64,000 nucleotides of DNA from Propionicimonas sp. (GTDB lineage: Bacteria; Actinomycetota; Actinomycetes; Propionibacteriales; Propionibacteriaceae). The notes below the pieces were generated by a model. That model was not told the DNA's origin. It worked only from the letters and a program-made list of their open reading frames with translations, and did not search any database. A program made the translations under genes and the position numbers. The stretch is from contig NZ_JARKPQ010000114.1 of assembly GCF_029975155.1 (NCBI RefSeq), positions 1 to 64,000 on the forward strand. The letters run 5' to 3'. Of the stretch, positions 48,685 through 64,000 are shown piece by piece. Each line of letters begins with the position of its first letter. The stretch's first letter is position 1.

Positions 48685-49686
48685 TCAGCGGTTCTTGCGC
48701 TCGTCGATGATGATCGCGATCACGATGATCGTGCCCTTGACCACCTGCTGCATGAACGGCGAGATGTTGATCAGGTCCATGCCGTTGTTGATCACGCCGA
48801 TGATCAGCGCACCGACGATGGTGCCCCAGATCGTGCCGACACCGCCGTTGAAGCTGGTGCCACCGATGACGGCCGCGGTGATCGCGTCCAACTCGATGCC
48901 GGTGCCCAGGGTCGGGTTGCCGGAACCGGTCCGCGCGGCCAGCATGATGCCGGCCAGACCTGCCATCAGGCCGGCGAGGGTGAAGATGCTGATCTTGATC
49001 TTGTTCAGGTTGATGCCGGACACCCGGGCGGCCTGCTCGTTGCCACCCAGGGCGTAGGTGTGCCGGCCGAACCGGGTGAAGTTCAGGGCGACGTGAGCGA
49101 GGACCGCGACGATGGCGAGTATCCAGATCGGCACGGGGATGAACAGCAGGTCACCCTGACCGATCCAGTTGAAGGCGGGCTGCAGCCGCGAGATCGGCCG
49201 CCCGTCGGTGTAGATGTTGGCCATGCCGCGGGCCGCGGTCATCATGCCGAGGGTGGCGATGAACGGAGCGATCTTGAACCCCGCGATCAGCGCACCGTTG
49301 ATCAGGCCGAGCAGCGCACCGACGGCGAGGCCGGCCACCACCGCGACGATCACCGGCAGCTGCAGGCCCGGGTACTTGATCACCGAAGCCTCGGGGGACT
49401 GGGCGAGGCTTGCCGAGACCACCGCCGCCACGGCCAGGACCGAGCCGACCGACAGGTCGATGCCGTTGATGATGATCACGAACGTCATGCCGGTGGCGAT
49501 CACGCCGATCGCAGAGACCTGCCGGATCACATTGATCAGGTTCTGCGCCTGGAGGAAGGTACCGCCGGTCAGGACCGACAGCAGGATGATGAACAGCAGC
49601 AGGATGCCGATGATCGCGTACTTCTTGATGAAGCCGCCGGTGTCGAACCGTGTCGGCGTGGCTTCTGCGGTAGCAGGTGTTGACAT
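48685..49686 (-). CDS. Sugar ABC transporter permease (RbsC-like)
   Basis: Inner-membrane permease (333 residues, about ten helices) of the ribose/inositol import family. [25 protein letters not shown] is the family's early signature, followed by [17 protein letters not shown] and [19 protein letters not shown] with the conserved EAA-like loop, and [31 protein letters not shown]. It sits 18 bases after the ATPase gene. Its partners are the ATPase (49705) and binding protein (51297). Confidence 0.93.
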
Positions 49687-49704: not shown

Positions 49705-51210
49705 TCAGGCCGCCTGGTCCGCAGGGCCGGTCGCAAGTTGCATGATGACTTCCTGGGTGGCCTCAGCACGGTCGACCACTCCACTGACGCTGCCTTCGTG
49801 CATGACGACCACGCGGTCGCTCATGCCGAGCACCTCGGGCATCTCCGAGGAGACCATGATGATCGCCTTCCCCTGCTGGGCCAGCAGGGACATCAGCCGG
49901 TGGATCTCCGACTTCGCCCCCACATCGATGCCACGGGTCGGCTCGTCGATCATCAGGATGTCGGGAAGAGTCAACAACCAGCGCGAGATCAACACCTTCT
50001 GCTGATTGCCACCAGACAGATTCTGGATCAACTGGTTCAACGACGGCGTCTTCAACGCCAACGCCTCCCGCTGCGCCTGACAATCCTTCTCAATCCGACG
50101 CCGCTGTAGGAACCCGTTCGGCGAGTACTTCGGCAACGCCGCCATGATCATGTTGTCCCGCACGCTCAACACACCCATGATCCCGGTGAGCTTGCGGTCC
50201 TCGGTCAGCAACGCCATGTCGGCGGCGATCGCATCCTTCGGCTGCCGAATGCTGCGCGGCGTGCCGTTGATCACGATCTCGCCGGACTCGGCCGGAAACA
50301 CCCCGAACAGCGTCTCCAGCACCTCCGTGCGTCCGGCGCCCATCAGGCCGGCGAAGCCCAGGATCTCACCGCGCCGCAGGTCGAAGCTCACGTCCTTGAC
50401 CAGGTGGCCACGGTTGAGGTTGCGGACGCTCAGGATGACGTCGCCGATCTCCGCGTCCAGTTTGGGGAACATCTGGGTGAGTTCACGGCCCACCATCAAC
50501 GTGATCAGCTTGTCCCGGTCCAACTCGGCCGCCGGAAGGCTCGCCACGTGCTTGCCGTCGCGGAACACCGTGATGTCATCGGAGATCTTGAAGACCTCGT
50601 CCATCTTATGGGTGATGTAGATGATCGCCGTCCCGGTCGCCTTGAGCTGGCCGATCATCCGGTGCAGATGCGCCACCTCGGTCTCGGTGATCGCCGAGGT
50701 CGGCTCGTCCATGATGATCAGCTTCGAATCAAAGCTGATCGCCTTCGCGATCTCCACCATCTGCGTCTGCGCCACGCTCAGCGTCTTCATCTGCGCGGCC
50801 GGGTTGATCCCGATCTCCCACTTGTCGAACAGCTCGCGGGTGGCCCGCTTCATCTCGGTCCGGCTGATCAGGCCGAGCGCGCCCTTCGGCTCCCGCCCCA
50901 GCCAGATGTTCTCCGCCACCGTCATCTCCGGCACCGGTGACAGCTCCTGGTGGATCATCGAGATCCCCAGCCCCAACCCGGTGGCCGTGTCGCCGATCTG
51001 CACTTCCTTGCCGTCGAAGACGATCGTGCCGCCGTCGGGCTGGTACATCCCGATCAGCACCTTCATCAACGTCGACTTGCCGGCACCGTTCTCCCCCATC
51101 AGGGAGTGGACGGTTCCCGGACGCACGTTCAGATCCACATGATCCAACGCATGCACACCCGGGAAGATCTTGTCGATGCCCTGCATCTGGAGCAGGTACT
51201 GGTCAGCCAT
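49705..51210 (-). CDS. Sugar ABC transporter ATP-binding protein (RbsA-like, two domains)
   Basis: Fused double ABC ATPase (501 residues). The first half has Walker [14 protein letters not shown], a signature with the family change [14 protein letters not shown], and Walker [12 protein letters not shown]. The second has [16 protein letters not shown] in place of a normal Walker [15 protein letters not shown] and [14 protein letters not shown]. This asymmetry is the hallmark of the RbsA/MglA/XylG group. The ATG at 51210 was chosen by family length; an extra 24 codons upstream cover a hairpin region. Confidence 0.94.
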
Positions 51211-51250
51211 TCGTAACCTCACTGACGGCGTTGTCGGGCAGGGGGACATG

Positions 51251-51288
51251 TGGTGGGTGGGTGGCCGCGGACGGTCACCCACCCACCA
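51251..51288. terminator. Hairpin between binding-protein and ATPase genes
   Basis: Perfect 12-base arms, TGGTGGGTGGGT (51251-51262) and ACCCACCCACCA (51277-51288), enclose a 14-base loop in the 86-base gap after the binding protein. Such hairpins stabilise or partly end the message so that the receptor is made in excess over the ATPase and permease. No T-run follows. Confidence 0.6.
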
Positions 51289-51296
51289 TCAGATTG

Positions 51297-52274
51297 TTAC
51301 TTGAAATCAGCCATGTTGTCAGGAGTGACCAGCTGGTAGGGGATGTCCACGTAGGAGTCCACCTTCTCGCCCTTGGCGAGCTTGATCACTGCGTCCAGGC
51401 CACCGGCACCCTGGCCCTTGGCGTCCTGGAACACGGTCACCGCGAGGTCACCGGCCTCCATGGAGGCGAGGGCGTCGGAGGTGGCGTCCACGCCACCGAC
51501 CAGGATGCCGCCGGCGCCGAGCTTCTTGTTGGCGGCCTTGATGGCGTTGATCGCGCCGAGCGCCATCTCGTCGTTGTTCGCGCAGACCACGTCGATCTGG
51601 TCGCCGGACTGCAGCCAGTTCTCCATGATCGACTGACCCTTGTCGCGGTACCAGTTGCCGGCCTGGGTCTTGATGACCTTCATGCCCGGGTTCTTGGCCA
51701 CGACATCGGTGCAGCCCTGGGTGCGGAGCTTCGCGGCCTCGTTGGCCGGGTCGCCCTGCAGGATCACGACGTTGCCCTTGCCGCCGGCCAGCTTGGCCAG
51801 TTCGGTCATCTGGAGGGTGCCCGACACCAGCGAGTCAGAGCCCACGTACGGCACGGTCTCGGGCAGGTTGGCCGGACGCCGGTTGACGTAGACCAGCGGG
51901 ATGTTCGCGCTCTGCGCGGCGTCGGTCATCGGGTCGGCCGCATCGGTGTCGACCGGGATCACGATGATGCCGTCGAGCTTCTGGGAGATGAAGTTCTCCA
52001 CCTGGCCCAGCTGCACGTCGGTCTTCTCCTCCGCGGCGACGATGCTGACCTCGACGCCCTGGGCGTCGGCCTCCGCCTTGATGCCGTCGGCGACCTTCTG
52101 CAGGAACTGGTCGAGGATCGGGAAGGTGACGCCGATCTTGAGCGTCTTGTTCGCGGCCGGCTCCGAACCTGCGGCGCCGGGGCTCGCGGTCGTGGACGGG
52201 GTGGAACAAGCGGTGAGGACACTGGCGGACGCGAGCACGATCGCTGCGACCTTGAGTCCGATTCTGTTGGCCAT
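51297..52274 (-). CDS. Sugar ABC substrate-binding lipoprotein (inositol/ribose type)
   Basis: Lipoprotein (325 residues) of the RbsB/periplasmic-binding-protein type 1 family. The signal peptide ends in the lipobox LTAC, giving Cys23 as the mature N-terminus; a Ser/Thr/Pro linker follows. The two-lobe fold is clear: KIGVTFPILDQFLQKVADGI, DGIIVIPVDTDAADPM, VVILQGDPANEAAKLRTQG, VVCANNDEMALGAINAIKA and GGVDATSDALASMEAG. Closest in type are binding proteins for ribose, galactose or inositol; the neighbouring inositol genes favour an inositol. It is the first gene of the operon, behind the promoter at 52408-52441. Confidence 0.92.
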   Translation of the reverse strand: MANRIGLKVAAIVLASASVLTACSTPSTTASPGAAGSEPAANKTLKIGVTFPILDQFLQKVADGIKAEADAQGVEVSIVAAEEKTDVQLGQVENFISQKLDGIIVIPVDTDAADPMTDAAQSANIPLVYVNRRPANLPETVPYVGSDSLVSGTLQMTELAKLAGGKGNVVILQGDPANEAAKLRTQGCTDVVAKNPGMKVIKTQAGNWYRDKGQSIMENWLQSGDQIDVVCANNDEMALGAINAIKAANKKLGAGGILVGGVDATSDALASMEAGDLAVTVFQDAKGQGAGGLDAVIKLAKGEKVDSYVDIPYQLVTPDNMADFK

Positions 52275-52924: not shown

Positions 52925-53929
52925 TCAGGCGTAGAAGGCCGGCTTGTCGATCATCGTGATCGGCACCTCGCCGTCGGCGGTGAGGGCCTGGACACCGGCG
53001 TCGCAGACCACGGCCGCGGCGTAGCCGTCCCACGAGGACGAACCGGTGTGGCGACCTTCGGACGCGGCGGTGATCCACTCCTGCACCTCGGTCACGAACG
53101 CGCCGTAGAAGCGGTCGTTGTGGTCGCGCGCGATCCGGTTGCGGGCACCGTAGGCGTCCCGGACGTCGATGACGTTCTGGTCGGCCAGGGACACTACTCC
53201 CTTCTCGGCCACGGCCTCGCAGCGGATGTCGTAGCCGTACTGGTGGTTGACGAACACCTCGTCGGAGACCCGGACGCCGGACTCGCTGGTCAGGATCAGC
53301 ACCAGCGGGTCCTGCAGGTGCGGGAACCGGAGGCTGGTCTTCTTGGGCTTGTCGACCCGGGCGGCCACGAACTCCTCCCCCAACAGCCAGCGGGTGGTGT
53401 CGATCTCGTGGATCGCGGTGTCGTTGATCGCCATGTCCCAGGTGTAGGACTCCGGCACCGTGGGGTTGCGGTGCGCACAGTTCACCAGCAGCACCTCGCC
53501 GAGCTCGCCCGAATCGAGCAGGGCCTTCATCTCCCGATAGCTCTTGTCGAACCGCCGCATGAAACCGACGGTGACCAGCTTGCGGCCGCCCGCCTGCTCG
53601 GCCTCCATGATCCGCAGCGCGCCGTCCGCGGACGGGGTGAGCGGCTTCTCGCAGAACACCGGCTTGCCCGCGGTGATGCACTCCAGGACGTCCGCCTCGT
53701 GGGCGGGGCCGAAGCTGGTGATCATCACCGCGTCCACGTCCGGGGAGTTGATCAGGGCGGTGCTGTCGGCGAACACCACACCGCCGATGCTGTCGGCGAC
53801 AGCCTTGGCGTTGTCCGCGTTGAGGTCGCTCACGCCGACCACCCGTCCGCCGGCGATCACCGAGTGGATGCGCTCGATGTGGGCCTTGCCCATCCCGCCG
53901 GGTCCGATCATGCCGATCCGTACAGTCAT
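52925..53929 (-). CDS. iolG: Inositol 2-dehydrogenase family (Gfo/Idh/MocA)
   Basis: NAD-dependent dehydrogenase (334 residues) of the IolG group, which oxidises myo-inositol to 2-keto-inositol (scyllo-inosose). Markers are the Rossmann GMIGPGGMGKAHIERI, the catalytic lysine in VFCEKPLTPSADGA, FMRRFDKSY (typical of IolG), INDTAIHEIDTTRWLLG with the catalytic D..IHEID..R motif, and NVIDVRDAYGARNRI in the C-terminal sheet. It starts 20 bases after iolE on the same strand, which supports an inositol role. Of the three Gfo/Idh genes in the window this is the best IolG. Confidence 0.92.
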   Translation of the reverse strand: MTVRIGMIGPGGMGKAHIERIHSVIAGGRVVGVSDLNADNAKAVADSIGGVVFADSTALINSPDVDAVMITSFGPAHEADVLECITAGKPVFCEKPLTPSADGALRIMEAEQAGGRKLVTVGFMRRFDKSYREMKALLDSGELGEVLLVNCAHRNPTVPESYTWDMAINDTAIHEIDTTRWLLGEEFVAARVDKPKKTSLRFPHLQDPLVLILTSESGVRVSDEVFVNHQYGYDIRCEAVAEKGVVSLADQNVIDVRDAYGARNRIARDHNDRFYGAFVTEVQEWITAASEGRHTGSSSWDGYAAAVVCDAGVQALTADGEVPITMIDKPAFYA

Positions 53930-53949
53930 GTCAGTCAGCCTTTCCGGTC

Positions 53950-54879
53950 TCAGAGAACGCCCAGGCCCAGGGAGGCCAGGTACTCGCGGGTGGCGACGGC
54001 GTTGGGGAACGGGTAGCTCTTCTCGCAGCCGTACATGTCCTGCTCGCAGATCACGTAGAGCTCCTTGTCCAGGTCGGCAAGGGTCTCGATCAGCGCCTTC
54101 ATCTCCGGCAGGCCGGCCGGCGGAGCCACGGACGCACCGGACAGGTTCGCCTTCACGAACGGCCAGTCCTCGTCGTGGGCCTGCTTCACGATCACCGGGT
54201 CCATCGCCTTGATGTGCACGTACTCGATGCGCTCGGGGTACTTCCGCGCGATCTCCATCGGGTCGCCGCCGCCGTAGACGATGTGGCCGGTGTCGAGGCA
54301 GAAGCCGACGTACTCGGGGTCGGTGGCCTGGAAGACGCGGTCGATGTCCTCGGGGGTCTCGATGTGGCTGTCACCGTGCGGGTGCAGCACCATCTTCAGC
54401 CCGTAGTCCTCCTTCATCATCCGGCCGAGCTTGTCGGCATTCTTGATGTACAGGTTCCACGCCTCGGTGGACAGCACCTTGTCGTCGGTGTAGCCGCCGG
54501 TCTTCTCGTCCCGGTACATCGGGGGCAGGTGCACCACGTACTCCGAACCGATCGCGGCGTGCGTCTCGCCGATCGAGCGGAAGAAAGCCTCGGTGTCGGC
54601 CCAGGCCTCGGCCTTGTGCAGGATGCCCCAGCCGGTACCCGCGACGACCCTGAAGCCGTAGGCGTCCATGACGGCCTTCAGCAGCTTGGGGTTGGTCGGG
54701 AAGTAGCCGTGGGGGCCGGTCTCCATGATCGAGAAGCCCGCTTCAGCCATCTCGGCGAGCGCGATGTCCCACGGGACCTGCTTCTCGTCATAGGGGAACC
54801 ACACGCCCCACTGGTCCGGACAGACACCGATCGTCAGCTTGCTGTACCTCGGGTCGGGGTTGACGGCTTTGGACGCCAT
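53950..54879 (-). CDS. iolE: Inosose dehydratase / TIM-barrel epimerase (IolE-like)
   Basis: Xylose isomerase-like TIM-barrel protein (309 residues) similar to inosose dehydratase, which removes water from scyllo-inosose. LTIGVCPDQWGVWFPYDEKQ and VPWDIALAEMAEAGFSIMETGPHGYFP match the N-terminal part of the IolE family. The metal-site residues are HPHGDSHIE, FCLDTGHIVYGGGDP and YVHIKAMDP, and the C-terminal VICEQDMY ends the barrel. It is the first gene of a two-gene unit with iolG, behind the promoter at 55019-55075. IolE family membership is likely; an epimerase role is the alternative. Confidence 0.85.
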   Translation of the reverse strand: MASKAVNPDPRYSKLTIGVCPDQWGVWFPYDEKQVPWDIALAEMAEAGFSIMETGPHGYFPTNPKLLKAVMDAYGFRVVAGTGWGILHKAEAWADTEAFFRSIGETHAAIGSEYVVHLPPMYRDEKTGGYTDDKVLSTEAWNLYIKNADKLGRMMKEDYGLKMVLHPHGDSHIETPEDIDRVFQATDPEYVGFCLDTGHIVYGGGDPMEIARKYPERIEYVHIKAMDPVIVKQAHDEDWPFVKANLSGASVAPPAGLPEMKALIETLADLDKELYVICEQDMYGCEKSYPFPNAVATREYLASLGLGVL

Positions 54880-55018
54880 GAGTTGAGTTCCTTTCGGGTG
54901 CTGAGGAGGCTCGGAGGGGCTCGCAGTCCTGCCCTAGCAGCAGGCAGTACGTGGTTCGCGGGTGGCCATCGTTGGTTACCTTCACTCCGAGTGACAGGGC
55001 TCCCGCCCTGTCGGTTCG

Positions 55019-55075
55019 AGCCTATTGCCGCGGGTTTGTGCTGTCAACAAGTCATTAGGTGAGATTGTCAGTACA
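55019..55075 (-). promoter_or_regulatory. Promoter and IolR-like site of the iolE-iolG unit
   Basis: On the minus strand TTGACA (55042-55047) and TAGGCT (55019-55024) are separated by 17 bases. TGTACTGACA (minus strand, 55066-55075) differs from KGWCHTRACA at one position (A for C at position 4). CTAATGAC lies just upstream of the -35, close to the CTAATGTC of the other two promoters. The rest of the gap from 54880 to 55194 holds the palindrome at 55123 and no gene. Confidence 0.55.
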
Positions 55076-55122
55076 TATGGCATCGGCGATCGAGTCCCAC
55101 CTCAGCGACCACCGCGGCAAAC

Positions 55123-55176
55123 GGGGACAGGCCCCTTTCCGCCACCCGGGTGGGTGGTGGAAAGGGGCCTGTCCCC
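55123..55176. repeat. Long palindrome (GGGGACAGG...CCTGTCCCC family)
   Basis: Arms of 25 bases at 55123-55147 and 55152-55176 pair with one mismatch around a 4-base loop. The outer ends are the same GGGGACAGG and CCTGTCCCC as at 5787-5846, but the middle differs. It lies just beyond the mmsA stop (55195), where it could fold as a terminator. Confidence 0.75.
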
Positions 55177-55194
55177 ACTGACCGCCAGGAGGGG

Positions 55195-56754
55195 TCAGTG
55201 GCGGGTCGTCATGCCGTCCCAGGTGCTGACCTTCTGGTGGCGGTGCTCCTCGGTGAACCAGGTGGTGGTGACCGCCTTGGTCTCGGTGAAGAACGCGACG
55301 CCGTCCTTGCCCATCGCGTGCAGGTCGCCGAAGAACGAGTCCTTGTGACCGGTGAACGGGAACGTGGAGAACGGCACCGGGATGCCCACGTTCACGCCCA
55401 CCATGCCGGCGTGGGTGCGCTTGGCGAACTCACGCGCGTAGTGGCCGGAGCTGGTGTAGATGCACGACCCGTTGGCGAACGGGTTGGCGTTCATGATCCC
55501 GAGGCCCTCCTCGAAGTCCTTCACCCGCTTGATCGAGGTCACCGGGCCGAAGATCTCGTAGGTGCCGGCCCAGTTGTCCGCGCCCACCCGGTCGAGGATC
55601 GTCGGGCCGACGTAGTAGCCGCCCTCGTAGCCGTCGACGCTCACGTCGCGCCCGTCCAGCACGAGGTCACCGCCCTCGTCCACACCGCGCTGAATGCAGG
55701 ACGCCACCCACTCGCGGTGCTTGGCGGTGATCACCGGGCCGAGCTGGCTCTCCGGAAGGTAGGCCGGGCCCAGCTTCAGGTCGGCCGCCTTCGCGGCCAG
55801 CATCTCCACCACCTGGTCGGCGACCGAGTCCTGTACGCAGACCACCGGCAGCGCCATGCAGCGCTGGCCCGCGCAGCCGTAGGTCGAGTTGATGATGCCG
55901 GCGACCGAGCGCTCCAGCACCGCGTCCTCGAGGATGAGGGCGTGGTTCTTGGCCTCGGTGAGGGCCTGGACGCGCTTCCCCGCGCCCGCGGCCACCTGGT
56001 AGATGTGCTTGCCCACCGAGGTGGAGCCGACGAAGCTGATGCCGCGGACGTCCGGGTGCACGAGCAGGCTGTCGGCCTCGACGCGGGAGCAGGTGACCAG
56101 GTTCGCCACGCCCTTGGGCAGACCCGCCTCGACCAGCAGTTCCATCATCCGCATCGAGGTCTGCGGCACCATCGAGGCGGCCTTCAGCACGAAGGTGTTG
56201 CCGGTGGTGATCGCGAACGGCAGCATCCAGCCCATCGGGATCATCGCCGGGAAGTTGTACGGCGCGATGCCCACGAACACGCCGAGCGGCTCGCGGTAGG
56301 AGACCGTGTCGTAGCCCTTGGAGATGTTCATCGTGGTGTCGCCCTGCATCAGGTAGTGCGTCGAGCACGCGCACTCCACGACCTCGATCGCCTTCAGCAC
56401 GTCGCCGCGGGCCTCGGACAGGACCTTGCCCATCTCGGTCGCCAGCAGGGTGCTCAGCTCGTCCAGGTGCTCGTCCAGCAGCGCCTTGAACCGGAACATC
56501 AGCTGGATCCGCTGCGGCACCGGGGTGTCGCGCCACGCCGGGTAGGCCCGCGCGGCGGCAGCGACGGCGGAGTCGACCTCCTCCTGGGTACAGCAGGGGG
56601 CTTCGGCGATCTGCTCGCCGGTGGACGGGTTCATCACCGGCATGTAGGTGCCGGTCCTCGACTCCCGCCACTCGTTGTCCACCAGGTAGCGCAACCGCTT
56701 CAGCGTTGCGGCGCTCTGGGTGGCAGCCGGGGCGGCCTCATTGGTCAACGACAT
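55195..56754 (-). CDS. mmsA: CoA-acylating methylmalonate/malonate-semialdehyde dehydrogenase
   Basis: NAD- and CoA-dependent aldehyde dehydrogenase (519 residues) of the MmsA/IolA group. In inositol breakdown it turns malonate semialdehyde into acetyl-CoA. The NAD site GNTFVLKAASMVPQTSMRMM and SFVGSTSVGKHIYQVAAGAGKRVQALTEAKNHALI are clear, with the catalytic Cys in YGCAGQRCMA. The lack of the usual general-base Glu in the ELGGK position (here EAKNH) is typical of the CoA-acylating group. It is the last gene of the iolC operon, 80 bases after iolB. Confidence 0.94.
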   Translation of the reverse strand: MSLTNEAAPAATQSAATLKRLRYLVDNEWRESRTGTYMPVMNPSTGEQIAEAPCCTQEEVDSAVAAAARAYPAWRDTPVPQRIQLMFRFKALLDEHLDELSTLLATEMGKVLSEARGDVLKAIEVVECACSTHYLMQGDTTMNISKGYDTVSYREPLGVFVGIAPYNFPAMIPMGWMLPFAITTGNTFVLKAASMVPQTSMRMMELLVEAGLPKGVANLVTCSRVEADSLLVHPDVRGISFVGSTSVGKHIYQVAAGAGKRVQALTEAKNHALILEDAVLERSVAGIINSTYGCAGQRCMALPVVCVQDSVADQVVEMLAAKAADLKLGPAYLPESQLGPVITAKHREWVASCIQRGVDEGGDLVLDGRDVSVDGYEGGYYVGPTILDRVGADNWAGTYEIFGPVTSIKRVKDFEEGLGIMNANPFANGSCIYTSSGHYAREFAKRTHAGMVGVNVGIPVPFSTFPFTGHKDSFFGDLHAMGKDGVAFFTETKAVTTTWFTEEHRHQKVSTWDGMTTRH

Positions 56755-56834
56755 CTGGTGTTCCTCTCTGTGTGGGCCGATCGGGCCCGTCTGGTGGCCG
56801 CGCCGTGGAAGGGTGCCGGGCGCGGCCGGTTGGG

Positions 56835-57713
56835 CTATTCGGTTGTCGCCAGTCGCGGGTCCACGGCCTGGCCCGCCCAGGTCTGGCGCACCCAGGCGTG
56901 GGCGGGGTCGTCACAGATCAGCCATGCTCGAGTCTCCCCCGGGCCGGCCATGACGTTCAGGTAGTACATGTCGTATCCGGGCGGGGCCATCGCCGGGCCG
57001 TGCCAGCCGTGCGGCACCAGCACCACGTCGCGGGGACGCACCTCGGCGAGCACGTCGATCGGACGCTCGTCCGTGCCGTACACCCGCTGGTAGCCGAAGG
57101 CATCGCCCGCCGCCGGGCTTCCCGGCTCGGTGCGAAGCTCGAAGTAGTAGATCTCCTCGAGGGACGTCTCGACGCCGTCCCGCTCCTCGTCGTGCTTGTG
57201 CGGCGGGTAGCTCGACCAGTTGCCGGCCGGGGTGATCACTTCGCAGGCGATGATCGAATCGGCCTCGAGCACGCCCGGCGTCCCGAAGTTGCGGACGCGG
57301 CGGCTGGCCGTGCCGGCGCCGCGCAGCTCGTCCGGCACGGCGGACGCGGGCACGTAGGCCACGGGGAGGGCATTGCGTGCCGTCGCGGAGCACAGGGCGT
57401 AGCGACCGCCGGTGGTGCTGGTCAGGGTGAAGCTCGCGTCGCGAGGGACGTAGAGCACGTCGGTGGCCGCGCTGAACACGTCCGGACGCCCGGCCAGCTC
57501 GTAGGCCTGTCCGGCCACCTCGACGCTCGCCGCGCCGCGCAGAGGTACGACGATGTACTCCAGATCGTGGGTCTCGACCGTCCGGCTCTCCCCCGCCGCC
57601 AGATCGGCGACCTGGAGGCCGGTGTGGGCCCACCCCTCGACCGAGCCGGGCAACACCCGGGTGTCGTACTCCGCGTCGGCGGAGGTCCCCGCCGGATACA
57701 CCCACTGACTCAT
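56835..57713 (-). CDS. iolB: 5-deoxy-glucuronate isomerase
   Basis: Cupin enzyme (292 residues) that isomerises 5-deoxy-glucuronate to 5-dehydro-2-deoxy-D-gluconate, the substrate of IolC. The metal-binding set is SSYPPHKHDEERDG followed by LEEIYYFEL and, near the C-terminus, VPHGWHGPAMAPPGYDMYYLNVMAG, as in KduI/IolB. It overlaps the upstream barrel-protein gene by 4 bases (ATGA). The length is normal. Longer readings upstream lie over the neighbouring gene and were rejected. Confidence 0.94.
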   Translation of the reverse strand: MSQWVYPAGTSADAEYDTRVLPGSVEGWAHTGLQVADLAAGESRTVETHDLEYIVVPLRGAASVEVAGQAYELAGRPDVFSAATDVLYVPRDASFTLTSTTGGRYALCSATARNALPVAYVPASAVPDELRGAGTASRRVRNFGTPGVLEADSIIACEVITPAGNWSSYPPHKHDEERDGVETSLEEIYYFELRTEPGSPAAGDAFGYQRVYGTDERPIDVLAEVRPRDVVLVPHGWHGPAMAPPGYDMYYLNVMAGPGETRAWLICDDPAHAWVRQTWAGQAVDPRLATTE

Positions 57714-58612
57714 GCCACTCCCACCTGGGTCGCTTGCTGATGGACGAGCCCGGCGGCGATGTCGACGGCCTTGGCCACATCGTTGTCCGCCGGGTAGAGC
57801 AGCGCCCGGCCGATCACGAGCCCGACCGCCGTCGGATGCTCGAGCGCGTCCGCCCACTGCCGGTAGATCTGGTCGGGGTCGCCGACCGGGTCGCCGCCCA
57901 GCAGCAGGCTGGGCAGGGTCGTGGAGTCGAGCACCCGGTGCATGTCGTCGACCACCGGCAGCTTCAGCCACGTGTGCGCACTGGTGGCGCCGAGGCCGGC
58001 CGCGATCTGGATCGACTTGATCACCGAGTCGGGATCGAGCACGTTGCGCACCCGGTCGGGCGCGACGCGGACGGAGAGGAACGGCTCGACCATGGCCATC
58101 AGCCCGCGTTTCGACAGCGCCGTGACCGCCGCGCCGGTGGACTCCAGCACGCGGGCGGTGTCCTCGTCCTCGAGGCAGATCCGGGTGAGCATCTTGCCGC
58201 CGTCCAGGCCGTTGCCGGCGAGGGTCTCCGCGTCATAGCCCGTCCAGCGGTCGTCGAACTCGAACTCCGCACCCTGCAGGCCACCCCGGTTCATCGAGCC
58301 GACCACGACCTTGCCCTCCAGCAGGCCGGACAGCAGCAGGTCCTCGAGGATGTCCGCCGTGCCCAGCACGCCGTCCACGCCCGGCCGGCGCAGGGCGACG
58401 GCGAGCCGCTCCAGCAGGTCTGCCCTGGAGGCCATCGCGCGCGCATTGTCCCGGACGCCGAGCGCGCCCCGAGCGGGATGGTCGGCCGCGACGATCAGCA
58501 GGCGCCCGTCCGCGGGCCGCTCCGAGCGGCGGCGATCCTTCCAGGCCCTGGTGATCGCGCCGGGGTCCGAGGCCCGCCGCCTGGTGAGTGCCGCCGCGTC
58601 GATGAGGGTCAT
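57710..58612 (-). CDS. Cgl0158-family (beta/alpha)8 barrel protein, possible iol aldolase
   Basis: Protein of 300 residues that resembles the Cgl0158 family found in actinobacterial inositol clusters. The barrel starts with LLIVAADHPARGALGV and continues through VDGVLGTADILEDLL, KVVVGSMNRGGLQGAEFEFDDR, and GGKMLTRICLEDEDTARVLES to HTWLKLPVVDDM with a lysine at the end of a strand (possible Schiff-base residue), then LLLGGDPVGD. This order recalls class I aldolases of the DeoC/FbaB type and the DUF2090 part of some IolC proteins. Its place between iolC and iolB suggests it cleaves 6-phospho-5-dehydro-2-deoxy-gluconate (the IolJ step). That function is inferred. The stop overlaps iolB. Confidence 0.75.
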   Translation of the reverse strand: MTLIDAAALTRRRASDPGAITRAWKDRRRSERPADGRLLIVAADHPARGALGVRDNARAMASRADLLERLAVALRRPGVDGVLGTADILEDLLLSGLLEGKVVVGSMNRGGLQGAEFEFDDRWTGYDAETLAGNGLDGGKMLTRICLEDEDTARVLESTGAAVTALSKRGLMAMVEPFLSVRVAPDRVRNVLDPDSVIKSIQIAAGLGATSAHTWLKLPVVDDMHRVLDSTTLPSLLLGGDPVGDPDQIYRQWADALEHPTAVGLVIGRALLYPADNDVAKAVDIAAGLVHQQATQVGVA

Positions 58613-58673
58613 GCGGGGTCCCCTCGGAGTTGTTCGGGGGAGCGCAGCGGAGGAGAGGAACTCCGTGGGGTGC

Positions 58674-59624
58674 TCATCGTCCAGCCTCCTCCAGCAGTGC
58701 CTCGACCTCGGCCTCGGTGGGCATCGCTGTCGAGCACTCCAGCCGGGACGCGACGAGCGCCCCGGCCGCGTTCGCGAACCGCAGCACCCTCTCCAGGCCC
58801 CAGCCGCTGAGCAGGCCGTGGCAGACCGCGCCACCGAAGGAGTCGCCCGCGCCGAGGCCGTTGACGACGCGTACGACGACCGGTGGCACCTCCACGGTCT
58901 CGTCGGCGGTCATCGCCAGCACACCCTTGGGGCCCTGCTTCACGATCGCGAGTTCGATCCCGCGCTCCAGGAGGGCCTTCGCCGCCCGGACCGGCTCGGC
59001 CTCGCCCACGGCCACCCGGCACTCCTCGCGGTTGCCGATCGCGACCGTGCAGTGCGAGAGGGCGATCTCGGCGTGCCGGGTCGCCTCGGCCTCCGTCTTC
59101 CAGAACATCGGCCGGTAGTCGAGGTCGAGGATGGTCAGCGGTTTCCGTTCCCGGACGCGCCATGCCGCCAGGTGCGACTGCCGGCTCGGCTCGGCGGAGA
59201 GCCCGGTCAGGGTCGACCAGTAGACGCCGGCGTCCGCGATCTCGTGCAGCGGGAGGTCGGTGACCTCGATCCGCAGGTCGGGTGCCTGGGGATAGCGGTA
59301 GAAGTACAGCGGGAAATCGTCCGGCGGAAAGATCTCGCAGAACGCCACCGGGGTGGGCAACCAGGGGTCCGTGCCGACGAAGTCGGTGGTGACGCCGAGT
59401 TCGGCGAGCTTGGCACGGACGAAACGCCCGAACGGGTCGTTGCCGGTCTTCGTGATGATCGCGGACGTGTGTCCGTAGCGGGCGGCGGCCACGGACACGT
59501 TGGTCGCGCTCCCCCCGAGGAACTTGCCGAAGGAGGTCACCTCTTCGAGCGGGACGCCGATCTGGGTGGGGTAGATGTCCACGCCGACACGACCGATGCA
59601 CACGACCTCGTAGGTGTCAGCCAT
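58674..59624 (-). CDS. iolC: 5-dehydro-2-deoxygluconokinase
   Basis: PfkB-family sugar kinase (316 residues) that phosphorylates 5-dehydro-2-deoxy-D-gluconate. The N-terminal motif is FGKFLGGSATNVSVAAARYG, followed by KTGNDPFGRFVRAKLAELGV, typical of IolC. The ATP and catalytic site is NGLGAGDSFGGAVCHGLL with the GAGD base. No C-terminal DUF2090 domain is fused, unlike longer IolC proteins. It is the first gene of the operon, behind the promoter at 59673-59715. Confidence 0.93.
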   Translation of the reverse strand: MADTYEVVCIGRVGVDIYPTQIGVPLEEVTSFGKFLGGSATNVSVAAARYGHTSAIITKTGNDPFGRFVRAKLAELGVTTDFVGTDPWLPTPVAFCEIFPPDDFPLYFYRYPQAPDLRIEVTDLPLHEIADAGVYWSTLTGLSAEPSRQSHLAAWRVRERKPLTILDLDYRPMFWKTEAEATRHAEIALSHCTVAIGNREECRVAVGEAEPVRAAKALLERGIELAIVKQGPKGVLAMTADETVEVPPVVVRVVNGLGAGDSFGGAVCHGLLSGWGLERVLRFANAAGALVASRLECSTAMPTEAEVEALLEEAGR

Positions 59625-59715: not shown

Positions 59716-59768
59716 TTAGCCTATTCAGGCATCCGGCGTTTACGCTATCAATGCATCGTCCGTTCGGC

Positions 59769-59774
59769 TATCGT
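59769..59774 (+). promoter_or_regulatory. Leaderless -10 box (TATCGT) of the iol regulator
   Basis: TATCGT ends 6 bases before the ATG at 59781, giving the leaderless layout. This supports the MATQIPV start over the ATG 30 bases upstream. Confidence 0.45.
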
Positions 59775-59780
59775 GCGCTC

Positions 59781-60521
59781 ATGGCGACGCAGATTCCTGT
59801 GACTATCGACCGGAACTCCCCCGTCCCGCTCTACCACCAGTTGGCCGAACAACTCGCGGCAGCGATCGACACCGGAGTGCTCAAGCCGGGCGACGCCTTC
59901 GAGAACGAACTGTCCCTCGCCGACCGGCTGGACCTGTCCCGGCCGACCGTTCGCCGCGCGATCGTCGAGCTGGTGACGCGGGGTCTGCTCGTCCGCCGCC
60001 GCGGCATCGGCACCACCGTCGCCAACGAGGTGATCCACCGCCGCAACGAGCTGACCAGCCTGTACGACGACCTCAAGCGCAACGGCCGCGAACCGCTGAC
60101 CGAGGTGCTGGAGTTCAACACCGAATTCATCGACCAGCGGGCGTCGCAGATCCTCGGCCTGGACCCGGAGACACCGCTGGTCTACCTGGAGCGGCTGCGC
60201 TCCGTCCAGGAGGGGCCGATGTCGGTGCTGCGCAACTGGCTGCCGCCGATGTGGGCGGACCTCGACCTGGACGCGCTGGCCAGCCACGGCCTGTACAACG
60301 TGATGCGGGCCCGCGGCGTCGTGCCCGCGGTCGCCCACCAGACCATCGGCGCCCGGCCGGCGGAGCCGAGCGAGCGCAAGCTGCTCGGCCTGGACAAGAA
60401 CGACCCGGTGCTGACGATGTCCCGCCGCGCCTACGACTCCGCGGGAGCGCCGGTGGAGTTCGGCGACCACTGCTACCGCTACGACCGGTACCTCTTCGAC
60501 ATCACGGTCTACGCCAGCTGA
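59781..60521 (+). CDS. iolR: GntR/HutC-family regulator, likely of the inositol genes
   Basis: Transcription factor (246 residues). The winged helix is at residues 15-80 (PVPLYHQLAEQLAAAIDTG, then LADRLDLSRPTVRRAIVELVTRGLL), with a C-terminal UTRA domain ending in FDITVYAS. It diverges from the iolC operon, and all three inositol promoters in the window have IolR-like sites, so it is the natural candidate. In Corynebacterium glutamicum the GntR regulator IolR represses inositol genes; identity here is by context and motif, so the symbol is provisional. The 3' end overlaps a convergent GntR gene by 13 bases. Confidence 0.8.
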   Translation: MATQIPVTIDRNSPVPLYHQLAEQLAAAIDTGVLKPGDAFENELSLADRLDLSRPTVRRAIVELVTRGLLVRRRGIGTTVANEVIHRRNELTSLYDDLKRNGREPLTEVLEFNTEFIDQRASQILGLDPETPLVYLERLRSVQEGPMSVLRNWLPPMWADLDLDALASHGLYNVMRARGVVPAVAHQTIGARPAEPSERKLLGLDKNDPVLTMSRRAYDSAGAPVEFGDHCYRYDRYLFDITVYAS

Positions 60522-61480: not shown

Positions 61481-62674
61481 CTAGCGGTTGCCGCGCCAGA
61501 AGTCCTGCCACGTCGTGGTGTTGGCGTAGTCGTCGGTCAGGTACACGGTGTCGAACGGCTGGATCTGATCGCGAATCCCTGCGATGCCCTGCGGATCGGA
61601 AGAAGTCACGAGGCTGGAGAAGGAGAACTTGCCATCCGGCATGATGAACTCCATTCCCTCCTGAGAGGTGGCGAAGTGGATATACAGCTTTGCCGCATTC
61701 GGGCTCTTCGTCTTCGTCGCGTAGGCCAGAGTCTGCGGGGTGGACGCTCCCAGGAACGGGTTGATTCCGGCGCAGGCAGCCAGCGAGTATCCCTTGTCGG
61801 CGTTGTTGCGGTATTTGGCGGCCCACATCAGACCCATCGGAGGGCTGGTCTGTCCGGGCGCACCCACGGCATCGGAGACCTCTTCATCGTTCTTGAAGAT
61901 CGTCGGTGAGTTCTTGGCCAGCCGCTTCACCCACTCGTGCACGGCCGTCGGCTCATCGGTCTTCAGGTCCTCGCCGTAGAGGTCCTTGTACGCCTTCGCA
62001 TAGGCGTCGGCGTGGTTGCGAGCGGCCTGGTTCCACGCAGTGGTGAACACGGTCCGGCTCTCGGGATCCGGTATGGCCACCAGACCGGCCCACTTCTGGT
62101 CGGTGAGTTCCCAGATGTTCTTGATCGGGCAGTTCGCACCGTTGACCTCGGTGTTGTAGGTCCAGAGCATCTGGTTGTCACTGGACAGGAATGGGTAGGT
62201 GGCGGTCTCGGGCAGGGTGTCCCGCATGTCACCAGGGACCCAGCTGGTGAGGATCCCGTCGGCCAGGAGCTGGGCATAGACCGCCGGCACCTCCGAGGTG
62301 GCGACGACGTCGCCGATCACATTGTTCGCCTGACTCTCCATGGCGACCTTCTCCAGCACATTTGTCTCGATCTTCACGCCGTTGGCCTTGATGCCGTACT
62401 TCGCGGTGAAGGCCTCGGCAATCTTCACGACTTTGCCGGTCTCGTCGTAGATCGAGATCGGGCCCTCCTTCTTGGCGGCGGCGATCAGCTTGTCCAGGTC
62501 GAAGCCCGCCGCGGTCTCGTCGGGAGCCGGATCGGGTCGCTGGATCGGGACGAGTTGGCCACTCTGACCGTCGGCGCCCGCCGGAGGCGCACAGGCGGAG
62601 AGCAGGGCCAGCACCACGAGGGTCGCCAGGCCGGCGACGCGGCGTGGCTTCGGATGAGAGAAACGTTCGGGCAC
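61481..62674 (-). CDS. ABC substrate-binding lipoprotein (AfuA/FbpA-type family 1)
   Basis: Lipoprotein receptor (397 residues). The signal ends in LSAC (Cys28). The fold matches iron(III)-, 2-aminoethylphosphonate- or hexose-phosphate-binding proteins: GPISIYDETGKVVKIAEAFTAKYGIK, DVVATSEVPAVYAQLLADGI, LWTYNTEV, IWELTDQKWAGLVAIPDPES and, late in the chain, YATKTKSPNAAKLYIHFATSQEGMEFI. The twin-tyrosine motif used for iron by FbpA proteins was not found, which points away from free ferric iron and toward an organic or phosphate ligand. GAGAAAGG lies 8 bases before the GTG. The operon also encodes an inositol-phosphatase-type enzyme (62712) and an ATPase (63554). Confidence 0.85.
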   Translation of the reverse strand: MPERFSHPKPRRVAGLATLVVLALLSACAPPAGADGQSGQLVPIQRPDPAPDETAAGFDLDKLIAAAKKEGPISIYDETGKVVKIAEAFTAKYGIKANGVKIETNVLEKVAMESQANNVIGDVVATSEVPAVYAQLLADGILTSWVPGDMRDTLPETATYPFLSSDNQMLWTYNTEVNGANCPIKNIWELTDQKWAGLVAIPDPESRTVFTTAWNQAARNHADAYAKAYKDLYGEDLKTDEPTAVHEWVKRLAKNSPTIFKNDEEVSDAVGAPGQTSPPMGLMWAAKYRNNADKGYSLAACAGINPFLGASTPQTLAYATKTKSPNAAKLYIHFATSQEGMEFIMPDGKFSFSSLVTSSDPQGIAGIRDQIQPFDTVYLTDDYANTTTWQDFWRGNR

Positions 62675-62711
62675 GATGATTGCCTTTCTCGAAGGGAACG
62701 AACAGGAGCTG

Positions 62712-63557
62712 TCAGGTCGGATCGGGAACCGTCGCGTTGACAGGACGACGGCTCTGGAAGCGCATGATCTGGTCGATCAGCGCGAAGTCGGCACCGGCGA
62801 CTGTCCCGAAGTAGTGCCGGTTGAGGTGATCGGAGACGGACGGAAGCTGCCTGCCTTCGCCGTAGGTGCGGTAGACACCGCCCGCCTGCTTGAGGATGAA
62901 CGCCGGTGCCGCCACGTCCCATGGGTTGGCCTCGAAGGCGAAGGTGGCGTCGGCCCAGCCCGCCGCGACGTGGCACAACGAGATGGCGCTGCTGCCGAGG
63001 TCACGGACCGCTGAGTAGCCCAACTCCAGTTGGGCGTAGGCAGCCAGGGCCTCGGCGCTGTAGTGGACGAGATCCCGCGGCAACGGAAAGGACGCGATGA
63101 CGGTCGCCTGCTCAGGCACCGTGCATCCACGGGCCAGCAGCGGCCGTCCGTTCAGCCGGGCACCTCGCTCGTCGGCCTCGAAGAGTTGCTCGGCGACCGG
63201 GTCGTACACCACTCCGGCAACCACTTCGCCGTCGACGGCCGCGGCCACGACCACCGCCCACAGCGCGATGCCACGGGCGAAGTTGGCGGTGCCGTCGATC
63301 GGGTCGACGTACCAGGTCACCTCGCCGTCGCCGCTGAAGCCGCCCTCCTCGCCGAGGATGCGCGATCCCGGCAGTCGGGCGTCGATGACGGTGCGGACCT
63401 CGGCCTCGGCCTTGCGATCGTAGGCCGTCACGATGTCGTGGAAGTCGGCCTTCTCCTCGATCTCGACGTTGTGGTTGCGGAAGCCCTGCAGGGCGACCTT
63501 GCCCGCGCTCAACGCCGCGCAGCGGGCGATGTCCATCAGCTCGGCACTGGCGATCAT
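62712..63557 (-). CDS. Inositol monophosphatase-family phosphatase
   Basis: Metal-dependent phosphatase (281 residues) of the IMPase/HisN/CysQ superfamily. The metal-binding motifs are GEEGGFSGDGE (Glu), WYVDPIDGTANFARGI (DPIDGT) and AFEANPWDVAAPAFILKQAGG (WDxAA). It could act on inositol phosphate, histidinol phosphate, fructose bisphosphate or adenosine bisphosphate. Its place between the ABC ATPase (overlap 4 bases) and the binding-protein gene suggests that the imported ligand is a phosphate ester. The start at 63557 is set by that overlap. Confidence 0.88.
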   Translation of the reverse strand: MIASAELMDIARCAALSAGKVALQGFRNHNVEIEEKADFHDIVTAYDRKAEAEVRTVIDARLPGSRILGEEGGFSGDGEVTWYVDPIDGTANFARGIALWAVVVAAAVDGEVVAGVVYDPVAEQLFEADERGARLNGRPLLARGCTVPEQATVIASFPLPRDLVHYSAEALAAYAQLELGYSAVRDLGSSAISLCHVAAGWADATFAFEANPWDVAAPAFILKQAGGVYRTYGEGRQLPSVSDHLNRHYFGTVAGADFALIDQIMRFQSRRPVNATVPDPT

Positions 63558-64000
63558 GCCGGAACCTCCACTCGGGCATCGGCGCGGTCGAAGACATGCA
63601 GCGCGCTGGCCTTGACGCGCAGCACGACGTCCCCACCGGGCCGTACCGTGGGAACCTGGGGAGACGTGGCGTAGACGGCACGGTCGGCGATCCTCACCTC
63701 GGTCGTCCAACTGCCGCCCGTGGGCATCAGGGACTCGACCCTCCCCGGCAGTTCCAGTTCATCGCCGGCGGACTGGCCGGGCGCCCCGACCCGCAGCGAC
63801 TCGGGCCGGATGCCCAGCGAGCCAAGGCCGTCCGCCGCCAACCCACGGCGCTCGAGGAATGCCAGCGGCGCCACCGCGTCTGCCCCGGCTGGATCGAGTT
63901 CGAAGAAGTTGATCGGCGGCACCCCCAGGAAGCCGGCCACGAACCGGGTCTGTGGGTGGTCGTAGATCTCGAGCGGAGTGCCGACCTGCTGCAGCACGCC
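63554..64000 (-). CDS. ABC transporter ATP-binding protein, C-terminal part (partial)
   Basis: C-terminal end of an ABC ATPase of the MalK/UgpC/PotA type; the N-terminal nucleotide-binding part lies beyond the right edge. LQQVGTPLEIYDHPQTRFVAGFLGVPPINFFEL is the segment after the ATPase core, and the remaining 110 residues form a TOBE-like regulatory domain with GIRPESLRVG. It belongs to the binding-protein and phosphatase operon. The permease genes are expected further right. Confidence 0.9.
   Translation of the reverse strand, partial: GVLQQVGTPLEIYDHPQTRFVAGFLGVPPINFFELDPAGADAVAPLAFLERRGLAADGLGSLGIRPESLRVGAPGQSAGDELELPGRVESLMPTGGSWTTEVRIADRAVYATSPQVPTVRPGGDVVLRVKASALHVFDRADARVEVPA

Follow-up and report, generated by a model that had tools for sequence, protein, structure and literature searches.

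A Cgl0159-family TIM-barrel protein as the probable class I 2-deoxy-5-keto-D-gluconate-6-phosphate aldolase of an inositol operon in Propionicimonas sp.

Introduction

IolJ of Bacillus subtilis, which cleaves 2-deoxy-5-keto-D-gluconate-6-phosphate (DKGP) in the inositol pathway, is a metal-dependent class II aldolase of the PF01116 type. Inositol catabolism has a recognized gap at the aldolase step. Among 26 inositol users, 16 carried IolC fused to DUF2090 (PF09863), which was proposed to be a DKGP aldolase, and 2 carried IolJ (PMC9007349), so that up to 8 users are left unexplained. For Gaiella and other organisms, it has been suggested that the place of iolJ may be taken by an aldolase that is still without annotation (PMC6741124), and inositol clusters have been reported in 48% of 5,473 actinobacterial species (PMC9430895).

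The Corynebacterium glutamicum protein Cgl0159 (3FOK, PF22649) belongs to the same family as the protein described here, and the 3FOK molecule is labelled uncharacterized. We take Cgl0159 to be the same gene as cg0198. The latter is described as a conserved hypothetical protein in one study (PMC4609165). Gene numbering in a second source places Cgl0159 between iolC (Cgl0158) and iolA (Cgl0160) (PMC8637627), and growth of C. glutamicum on inositol as sole carbon source is stated in a third (PMC9603128). In the literature searched, we found no paper that assigns the aldolase step to Cgl0159.

Results

Organization of the inositol locus

The window is a stretch of 64,000 nucleotides from Propionicimonas sp. 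(contig C352 of our numbering), and the following genes were found at the inositol locus and adjoining it.

59751-60521, plus strand: GntR/UTRA regulator, divergent from iolC (PF07702, PF00392; 92% in L079)
59624-58674, minus strand: iolC, 5-dehydro-2-deoxygluconokinase, 316 aa (TIGR04382, 373 bits, exceeding the cut-off of 300)
58612-57710, minus strand: Cgl0159-family TIM-barrel protein, 300 aa (PF22649, 399 bits, E 9e-120)
57713-56835, minus strand: iolB, 5-deoxy-glucuronate isomerase, 292 aa (TIGR04378, 288 bits, exceeding the cut-off of 205)
56754-55195, minus strand: mmsA/iolA, CoA-acylating (methyl)malonate-semialdehyde dehydrogenase (TIGR01722, 569 bits, exceeding the cut-off of 448.5)
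54879-53950, minus strand: iolE-like inosose dehydratase (TIGR04379, 143 bits, under the curated cut-off of 290; PF01261)
53929-52925, minus strand: iolG-like inositol dehydrogenase (NF052679, 392 bits, under the cut-off of 540; PF01408)
51297-52274, minus strand: sugar-type periplasmic binding protein of an ABC importer that adjoins the operon (PF13407, 194 bits; 81-83% identity in L079 and L080)
49705-51282, minus strand: ABC importer ATPase (open reading frame, labelled by sequence reading; 85-87% identity in L079/L080)
48685-49686, minus strand: ABC importer permease (open reading frame, labelled by sequence reading; 84-85% identity in L079/L080)

The layout agrees with the initial annotation, which had placed a 300-residue barrel protein between iolC and iolB. 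The barrel gene is separated from iolC by 61 nt, and its stop codon overlaps the start ATG of iolB in an ATGA. The five inositol genes that had been named (iolC, iolB, mmsA, iolE and iolG) were all recovered as profile matches, although the iolE-like and iolG-like proteins scored under their own cut-offs. The window was also correctly described as lacking iolD, IolJ and DUF2090: none of the genome's six IolD matches lies on its contig, and the 316-residue IolC carries no fused DUF2090 domain, which was likewise not found elsewhere in the genome. The GntR/UTRA protein, matched in 66 of 80 relative loci, probably regulates the operon.

The description of an inositol pathway without iolD holds for the window only. 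As had been suspected, iolD simply lies elsewhere: contig C207 of this genome carries it, with a TIGR04377 score of 884 bits (cut-off, 715); a true absence of IolD from the genome was thereby ruled out, and the gap in the window is trivial. C207 is syntenic with the stretch preceding iolC in the two nearest relatives, L079 and L081, in which a block of menA, an enolase-superfamily gene, a transaldolase/fructose-6-phosphate-aldolase-family (TAL_FSA) gene, iolD and TauE is kept at 79-91% identity. Because of this synteny, C207 is no stray contig, despite a contamination estimate of 8.3%. The flanking regions of L080, a third near relative, yielded no iolD. Another contig (C121, 3.1 kb), with iolB, a split transketolase and an iolD fragment, was set aside on composition as the inositol set of this genome. 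Its tetranucleotide distance to the window was 174, a noisy value for so short a contig, compared with 78-97 for four other contigs, and its iolB shared 48% identity with that of the window.

Family, fold and candidate active site of the barrel protein

The barrel protein is a member of the Cgl0159 family: its PF22649 score far exceeded the gathering score of 27, with residues 36-287 aligned to profile positions 1-251, and a phmmer comparison with 3fok_A gave an E-value of 9e-93. The name "Cgl0158-type" was thus misplaced by one gene, as Cgl0158 is iolC in C. glutamicum (PMC8637627). PF22649 was the sole Pfam match at E 0.001, with no match to PF01116, the type to which IolJ belongs, PF09863 or PF01791.

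The predicted model was a TIM barrel with a pLDDT of 85.8, and its superposition on 3FOK gave a Z-score of 41.1 and an rmsd of 1.6 over 291 residues at 55% identity. The initial annotation had proposed modelling against class I aldolases, and this comparison revealed Z-scores of 20-25: the next matches after 3fok were ADH synthase (25.1), archaeal class I FBA (23.7), LsrF (22.9), YihT (21.4) and LacD (20.2). The first four of these (ADH synthase being MJ0400), which we take to be DhnA-type class I aldolases, share the fold (Z 21-25, rmsd 2.5-3.5) but no more than 20% identity. LacD, a class I tagatose-1,6-bisphosphate aldolase, matched in fold at a Z-score of about 20 with 10-13% identity and acts on another substrate; it has a catalytic Lys and Glu (PMC9007349). 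The predicted fold is therefore closest to that of DHAP-handling class I aldolases.

In an alignment of 24 sequences including the window protein, D44, K140, E176 and K217 were invariant. In the model, D44 lies where strand 1 ends, and K140, E176 and K217 are on strands 4, 5 and 6 (the last spanning 214-219), respectively. The lysine to which attention had been drawn in HTWLKLP is indeed present and corresponds to K217, which is a candidate Schiff-base residue. Comparison by hhalign with five DhnA-type proteins from related genomes gave a full-length match (97.7%, E 1.2e-11), in which the DhnA-type Schiff-base Lys aligned four residues before K217; for this reason K217 is only a candidate, and unproven. 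G239-G240 and G268-R269 are candidates for a phosphate grip.

Co-occurrence of Cgl0159 with the inositol pathway

Cgl0159 is tied to the inositol pathway. In a class sample of 246 genomes, with no more than ten candidates scored per genome, 111 had IolB over its cut-off, and Cgl0159 was strong (at least 183 bits) in 94. All 94 also had IolB, and none of the 135 genomes without IolB over the cut-off had Cgl0159; these counts are not independent events, owing to shared ancestry. Set aside in this count were PF22649 matches of only 20-32 bits (G202, G234, G251, G327, G330 and G375), one 56-bit PF22649 fragment (G153) and sub-cut-off IolB (G226, G233, G260, G306, G349 and G374). In 88 of the 94, Cgl0159 was encoded on the same strand as iolB and no more than 3 kb upstream of it; the median gap between the profile matches was 92.5 bp.

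A phylum sample of 149 genomes gave the same picture, with strong Cgl0159 in nine, all within the 24 IolB-positive genomes; 15 genomes with PF22649 at 19-34 bits only were not scored as Cgl0159. These uncounted genomes include G084, G095 and G106, which have DUF2090. Among 80 named relatives, chosen for having Cgl0159, 77 had iolB at most 3 kb downstream of it and 76 had iolC at most 3 kb upstream. The flanks contained iolD in 70 of these relatives and a class II aldolase in a single one; DUF2090 was found in none.

Relationship to DUF2090

Strong Cgl0159 and DUF2090 did not occur together in the 24 IolB-positive phylum genomes (nine with strong Cgl0159, ten with DUF2090), and five (G017, G055, G066, G070 and G108) had neither. 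Seven of eight strong DUF2090 frames were fused to IolC, the eighth being at a contig end. Eight of the 246 class genomes had weak DUF2090 as a standalone protein (78-140 bits, in frames of 291-391 aa), and 6 of the 94 with Cgl0159 were among them.

The two families have the same proposed reaction and pathway place, with DUF2090 fused to the kinase and Cgl0159 separate, and their strand 6 motifs are alike (TWLKLP in Cgl0159, WWKLP in DUF2090). Kinship was not detectable by direct comparison: hhalign of Cgl0159 against IolC-fused DUF2090 gave probabilities of 2.7% and 2.0%, which are not significant. Against ten standalone DUF2090-like proteins, the E-value was 6.5e-4 over 237 columns at a probability of only 27%, and this weak alignment placed D44, K140, E176 and K217 on D, K, E and K; K139, E177 and K209 of IolC-fused DUF2090 fell in the same columns as the Lys/Glu/Lys of Cgl0159. 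Two DUF2090 queries matched no PDB chain, and so gave no sequence link to LacD.

Class II and other aldolases

DKGP could instead be cleaved by a class II aldolase encoded at another site in the genome, leaving Cgl0159 another task in the operon, such as an intermediate of another inositol isomer. IolJ is the characterised enzyme of this step (PMC9007349), and the genome search for it, which the initial annotation had proposed, did reveal three PF01116 genes (on C386 and C145, and a long FbaA-type gene on C327), two of them short enough to be IolJ-like. None has inositol neighbours: tblastn over stretches of 18-19 kb found no iol gene near any of the three, save a 28% kinase match. The C386 gene has a PfkB kinase on either side, one of which is closest to tagatose kinase but scores under the cut-off of that model; genes for a HAD hydrolase and DhaK lie near the C145 gene. 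PF01116 was tested in 21 Cgl0159 genomes, of which 13 had long FbaA-type genes only and no short one; the C. glutamicum control had Cgl0159 and a PF01116 match, and no DUF2090 match.

The 17 of 111 IolB-positive class genomes that lack Cgl0159 bear on the same question. Short and long class II genes were present in seven, only long ones in seven and none in three; G157, G171 and G330 are among the Cgl0159-less genomes without PF01116. Around iolB in all 17 (18 kb for 15 genomes; 16.9 kb in G252 and 9.5 kb in G234, where contigs ended), no class II aldolase, DUF2090 or Cgl0159 was found. Ten iolB-neighbouring open reading frames (nine from these genomes and one from G055) belonged to ROK, GntR, SDR and transporter families, with one lacking a match, and neither PF01116 nor PF01791 gave a consistent substitute. 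A clean swap between Cgl0159 and a short class II aldolase was seen only in part. In genus g139, a short class II gene was present in the Cgl0159-less G164 and G205 and absent from the Cgl0159-bearing G176, G241, G268 and G277, and G186 had neither; in genus g3, it was present in all four Cgl0159-less genomes and also in two of three Cgl0159 genomes tested. Cleavage by a class II enzyme would leave the exceptionless link between Cgl0159 and IolB unexplained, and we consider it improbable as the main route, although the three genes may contribute to DKGP cleavage.

It is very unlikely that the TAL_FSA protein on C207 (PF00923, 126 bits) performs the cleavage. Its gene lies directly upstream of iolD on the same strand and is conserved at 88-91% identity in L079 and L081, but it was present in only 4 of the 80 relative loci (L079, L081, L083 and L149); as all 80 were chosen for having Cgl0159, they cannot show replacement by TAL_FSA. 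Equally hard to credit is a deoxyribose-phosphate aldolase, the name carried by 3 of 9 plasmid matches and in keeping with a class I barrel, given that the Pfam scan (E 0.001) gave no DeoC (PF01791) match and that the exceptionless IolB link in two samples is unexpected for a nucleoside enzyme.

Discussion

We propose that the protein encoded at 57710-58612 is the DKGP aldolase of the inositol pathway (EC 4.1.2.29), with a probability of about 0.8. The family, operon position, co-occurrence, fold and invariant residues were computed. The earlier suggestion that the barrel protein may be a Schiff-base aldolase standing in for IolJ gains support, at the level of sequence and model, from the strict co-occurrence with IolB, the operon position and the absence of DUF2090 from the genome, together with a class I fold and an invariant Lys/Glu/Lys set that may coincide with that of DUF2090-type proteins.

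We infer the substrate, the bond cleaved and the residue roles as follows. IolC would phosphorylate 2-deoxy-5-keto-gluconate to yield the substrate of the Cgl0159 protein, whose GG and GR motifs, located where strands 7 and 8 end, may hold the phosphate. Lys217 would form a Schiff base with the C5 ketone of DKGP, and Glu176 and Lys140 would serve as acid/base groups in cleavage of the C3-C4 bond, giving malonate semialdehyde and enzyme-bound DHAP, the latter being freed by hydrolysis. MmsA (IolA) would then convert malonate semialdehyde to acetyl-CoA and CO2. As a class I enzyme, Cgl0159 should need no metal.

Cgl0159 is proposed as the third DKGP aldolase family, after class II IolJ, which has the same proposed reaction, and the proposed IolC-fused DUF2090. 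With somewhat less assurance, we favor a combined reading in which this third, class I family is the main or only enzyme in most inositol users of the class (94 of 111 IolB-positive genomes) and a distant sister of DUF2090 with the same active site, one line being fused to IolC and the other remaining a gene of its own, flanked by iolC and iolB. The 17 genomes that lack Cgl0159 may use yet another, fourth solution. If the assignment is true, the DKGP step would be filled for most genomes sampled here, names such as "deoxyribose-phosphate aldolase" would be corrected, growth prediction would be improved, and 3FOK, a structural-genomics entry of 2009, would gain a role.

Identity and genomic context of the barrel protein

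The protein under study is encoded at the following position:
57710-58612, minus strand, 300-residue barrel protein between iolC and iolB

A Pfam scan assigned the protein to PF22649 (Cgl0159-like, 399 bits), and its only close solved relative was 3FOK, the uncharacterized Cgl0159 of Corynebacterium glutamicum (E = 9e-93). The label "Cgl0158-type" in the initial annotation is one number off, because Cgl0158 is iolC and Cgl0160 is iolA in C. glutamicum, according to the cited part of PMC8637627. Nine plasmid-borne copies are named deoxyribose-phosphate aldolase (3), aldolase (1) or hypothetical protein (1), or stand nameless in the table (4). We take cg0198 of C. glutamicum to be Cgl0159, with which the gene order is in keeping. 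In the relevant passages, cg0198 is a conserved hypothetical protein (PMC4609165), and the operon cg0197-cg0207 is said to hold seven enzymes assumed to be responsible, with cg0198 unmentioned (PMC9603128). Second, diverged Cgl0159 copies of about 184 bits were observed in two sampled genomes (G279:C18:19196-19918 and G356:C12:3226-3915), as were high-scoring duplicates of at least 385 bits in G123, G194 and G310.

The genome comprises 5.0 Mb in 404 contigs, with a contamination estimate of 8.3%. In the window (bases 1-64000 of contig C352), the minus strand carries, in this order, iolC, the barrel gene, iolB, mmsA and the iolE-like and iolG-like genes. A sugar-type ABC importer comes next, and a GntR regulator gene is divergent from iolC. 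In the profile scan of the window, iolC, iolB and mmsA of the previously proposed gene set passed their curated cut-offs, while iolE and iolG were family matches scoring below theirs. A 61-nt gap separates iolC from the barrel gene, whose stop codon shares the sequence ATGA with the start of iolB; this arrangement is a sign of a single transcription unit. A second importer-like set was also observed beside the operon (61481-63997, continuing past 64000; locus L165).

Genes of the second importer-like set
Solute-binding protein, PF13531
Inositol-monophosphatase-family protein, PF00459, 180 bits
End of a TOBE-domain protein

The binding protein had no match in the 80 relative loci and no PDB relative by sequence search; the phosphatase had matches in two of the 80 (42-44%). 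Speculatively, this set might import phosphorylated inositol and then remove the phosphate.

The initial annotation found no iolD in the window and allowed that it could lie elsewhere. Both points held: the genome profile search revealed none on C352 and an IolD match of 884 bits (cut-off 715) on contig C207. Besides iolD, C207 carries menA, genes of the enolase superfamily and the transaldolase family, and a TauE gene. In L079 (Propionibacteriaceae UBA6238) and L081, the closest of the named relatives, counterparts of all these genes, 79-91% identical and in the same order, precede the GntR gene and iolC, so iolD is simply separated from the operon here, an ordinary situation. On C207 (L159:8229-13126), the transaldolase/FSA-family and TauE genes flank iolD, and an IolG relative behind the set scored 321 bits for TIGR04380, under its cut-off of 355. 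The transaldolase/FSA-family gene lies beside iolD in L079, L081 and L083 and occurs in L149 too. Another contig, C121 (L162, 3117 bases), carries iolB, a transketolase split into two genes and the end of an iolD; its composition is unlike, and it represents either contamination or a second set of inositol genes.

Co-occurrence of Cgl0159 with IolB

A class-level sample of 246 genomes was screened for IolB, Cgl0159 and DUF2090. IolB exceeded its cut-off in 111 and strong Cgl0159 matches (at least 183 bits) were found in 94, all of them IolB-positive, with none in the other 135 genomes (Fisher p = 8e-51, without correction for common descent). Among these 94, Cgl0159 lay on the strand of iolB and at most 3 kb upstream of it in 88 (median gap of 92.5 bp between profile matches in the class sample); it was 9-10 kb away in two and on a different contig in four. 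In the phylum sample (n = 149), all nine strong Cgl0159 genomes were among the 24 with IolB. Among 80 named relatives, all found through Cgl0159 and examined with flanks of up to 10 kb, some cut by contig ends, Cgl0159 was followed by iolB at most 3 kb downstream in 77 and preceded by iolC at most 3 kb upstream in 76, and the flanks of 70 held iolD.

Structural comparison with class I aldolases

An AlphaFold2 model built from a 24-sequence alignment (pLDDT 85.8, pTM 0.87) revealed a TIM barrel. After 3FOK, the top solved fold matches were class I aldolases and their relatives (Foldseek E from 2.3e-10).

Fold matches of the model
DHAP-bound ADH synthase, Z 25.1, rmsd 2.9 over 243 residues
Archaeal FBA, Z 23.7
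LsrF, Z 22.9
Sulfofructose-phosphate aldolase YihT, Z 21.4
LacD, Z 20.2

DHAP is also a product of the cleavage of 2-deoxy-5-keto-D-gluconate-6-phosphate (DKGP). Residues D44-H45-P46, K140, E176-P177-F178, W215, K217, G239-G240 and G268-R269 were invariant in the 24 sequences, and in the model they occupy strands 4-6 and the ends of strands 1, 7 and 8. Profile comparison with five DhnA-type class I aldolases (our label for five weak PF22649 matches from related genomes) was firm (97.7%, E = 1.2e-11, 273 columns). In that alignment the Schiff-base lysine of these aldolases precedes K217 by four residues, an offset that we read, short of proof, as a shift around strand 6.

Other candidates for the aldolase step

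DUF2090 fused to IolC has been proposed as an alternative DKGP aldolase (cited part of PMC9007349). Five DUF2090 sequences share D42-H43, K139, E177, W207-W208-K209-L210-P211, G240 and G267-R268. Direct profile comparison of Cgl0159 with IolC-fused DUF2090 was not significant. Ten standalone DUF2090-like proteins gave a 237-column alignment with Cgl0159 (E = 6.5e-4) at a probability of just 27%, in which D44, K140, E176, W215 and K217 face matching residues; the same ten matched IolC-fused DUF2090 at 99.9%, with K139, E177 and K209 in the Cgl0159-matched columns.

As the initial annotation had it for the fused form, DUF2090 was missing from the window, and the profile search found none in the whole genome. 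It occurred in 10 of the 24 IolB-positive phylum genomes and in none of the nine with strong Cgl0159; the chance probability of this non-overlap is 0.0015, or 0.009 with the eight strong DUF2090 genomes only, uncorrected for ancestry. Seven of the eight strong frames were fused to an IolC relative and the eighth was truncated at the end of its contig; neither of the two weak frames was fused. Neither family was present in five of the 24 (G017, G055, G066, G070 and G108). Weak standalone DUF2090 occurred in eight class genomes, six of them with Cgl0159. These proteins of about 300 residues (G195, G258, G267, G276, G294, G320, G312 and G369; L194-L202) come in six of eight genomes from family f62.

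A class II aldolase encoded elsewhere in the genome could instead cleave DKGP, as IolJ does in Bacillus subtilis. The genome search suggested earlier for IolJ returned three class II (PF01116) genes.

Class II aldolase genes
C327, with a match length of the long FbaA type
C386, flanked by two PfkB kinases, of which one is nearest to tagatose kinase but scores below the cut-off for that model
C145, HAD hydrolase and dihydroxyacetone kinase genes nearby

C. glutamicum, an inositol user, likewise has PF01116 besides Cgl0159, and as a control it gave no DUF2090 match. With genes of up to about 840 nt counted as short and those of about 970 nt or more as long, a split of our own, 13 of 21 Cgl0159 genomes tested had only long-type class II genes, so these genomes often lack an enzyme of IolJ size altogether.

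Seventeen of the 111 IolB-positive class genomes lacked Cgl0159. The stretches around their iolB (L203-L219) contained iolD matches in all 17 and iolC matches in 11, with no class II aldolase, DUF2090 or Cgl0159; G157, G171 and G330 had no PF01116 match anywhere in the genome. Thus either a further aldolase, which may be hidden in these genomes, exists or the clusters serve another job.

Proposed role of the Cgl0159 family

The co-occurrence with IolB, the position upstream of iolB and the modeled class I aldolase fold support the earlier suggestion that the barrel protein is a DKGP aldolase; the 17 genomes and the statistically weak DUF2090 link count against it. IolC would make its substrate, DKGP, whose C5 ketone would form an imine with candidate Lys217. 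Glu176, aided by Lys140, would take the C4-hydroxyl or equivalent proton, and the carbon-carbon bond would break, freeing malonate semialdehyde for MmsA, encoded two genes on. The DHAP enamine would be protonated and then hydrolysed, and no metal should be required.

Our literature search found no publication giving Cgl0159 the aldolase step. For Gaiella and Solirubrobacter, in which iolJ was not found, the cited part of PMC6741124 considers an unannotated aldolase a possible replacement. If the aldolase reading holds, Cgl0159 would add a new enzyme family to a reaction already known and would not be a new kind of system.
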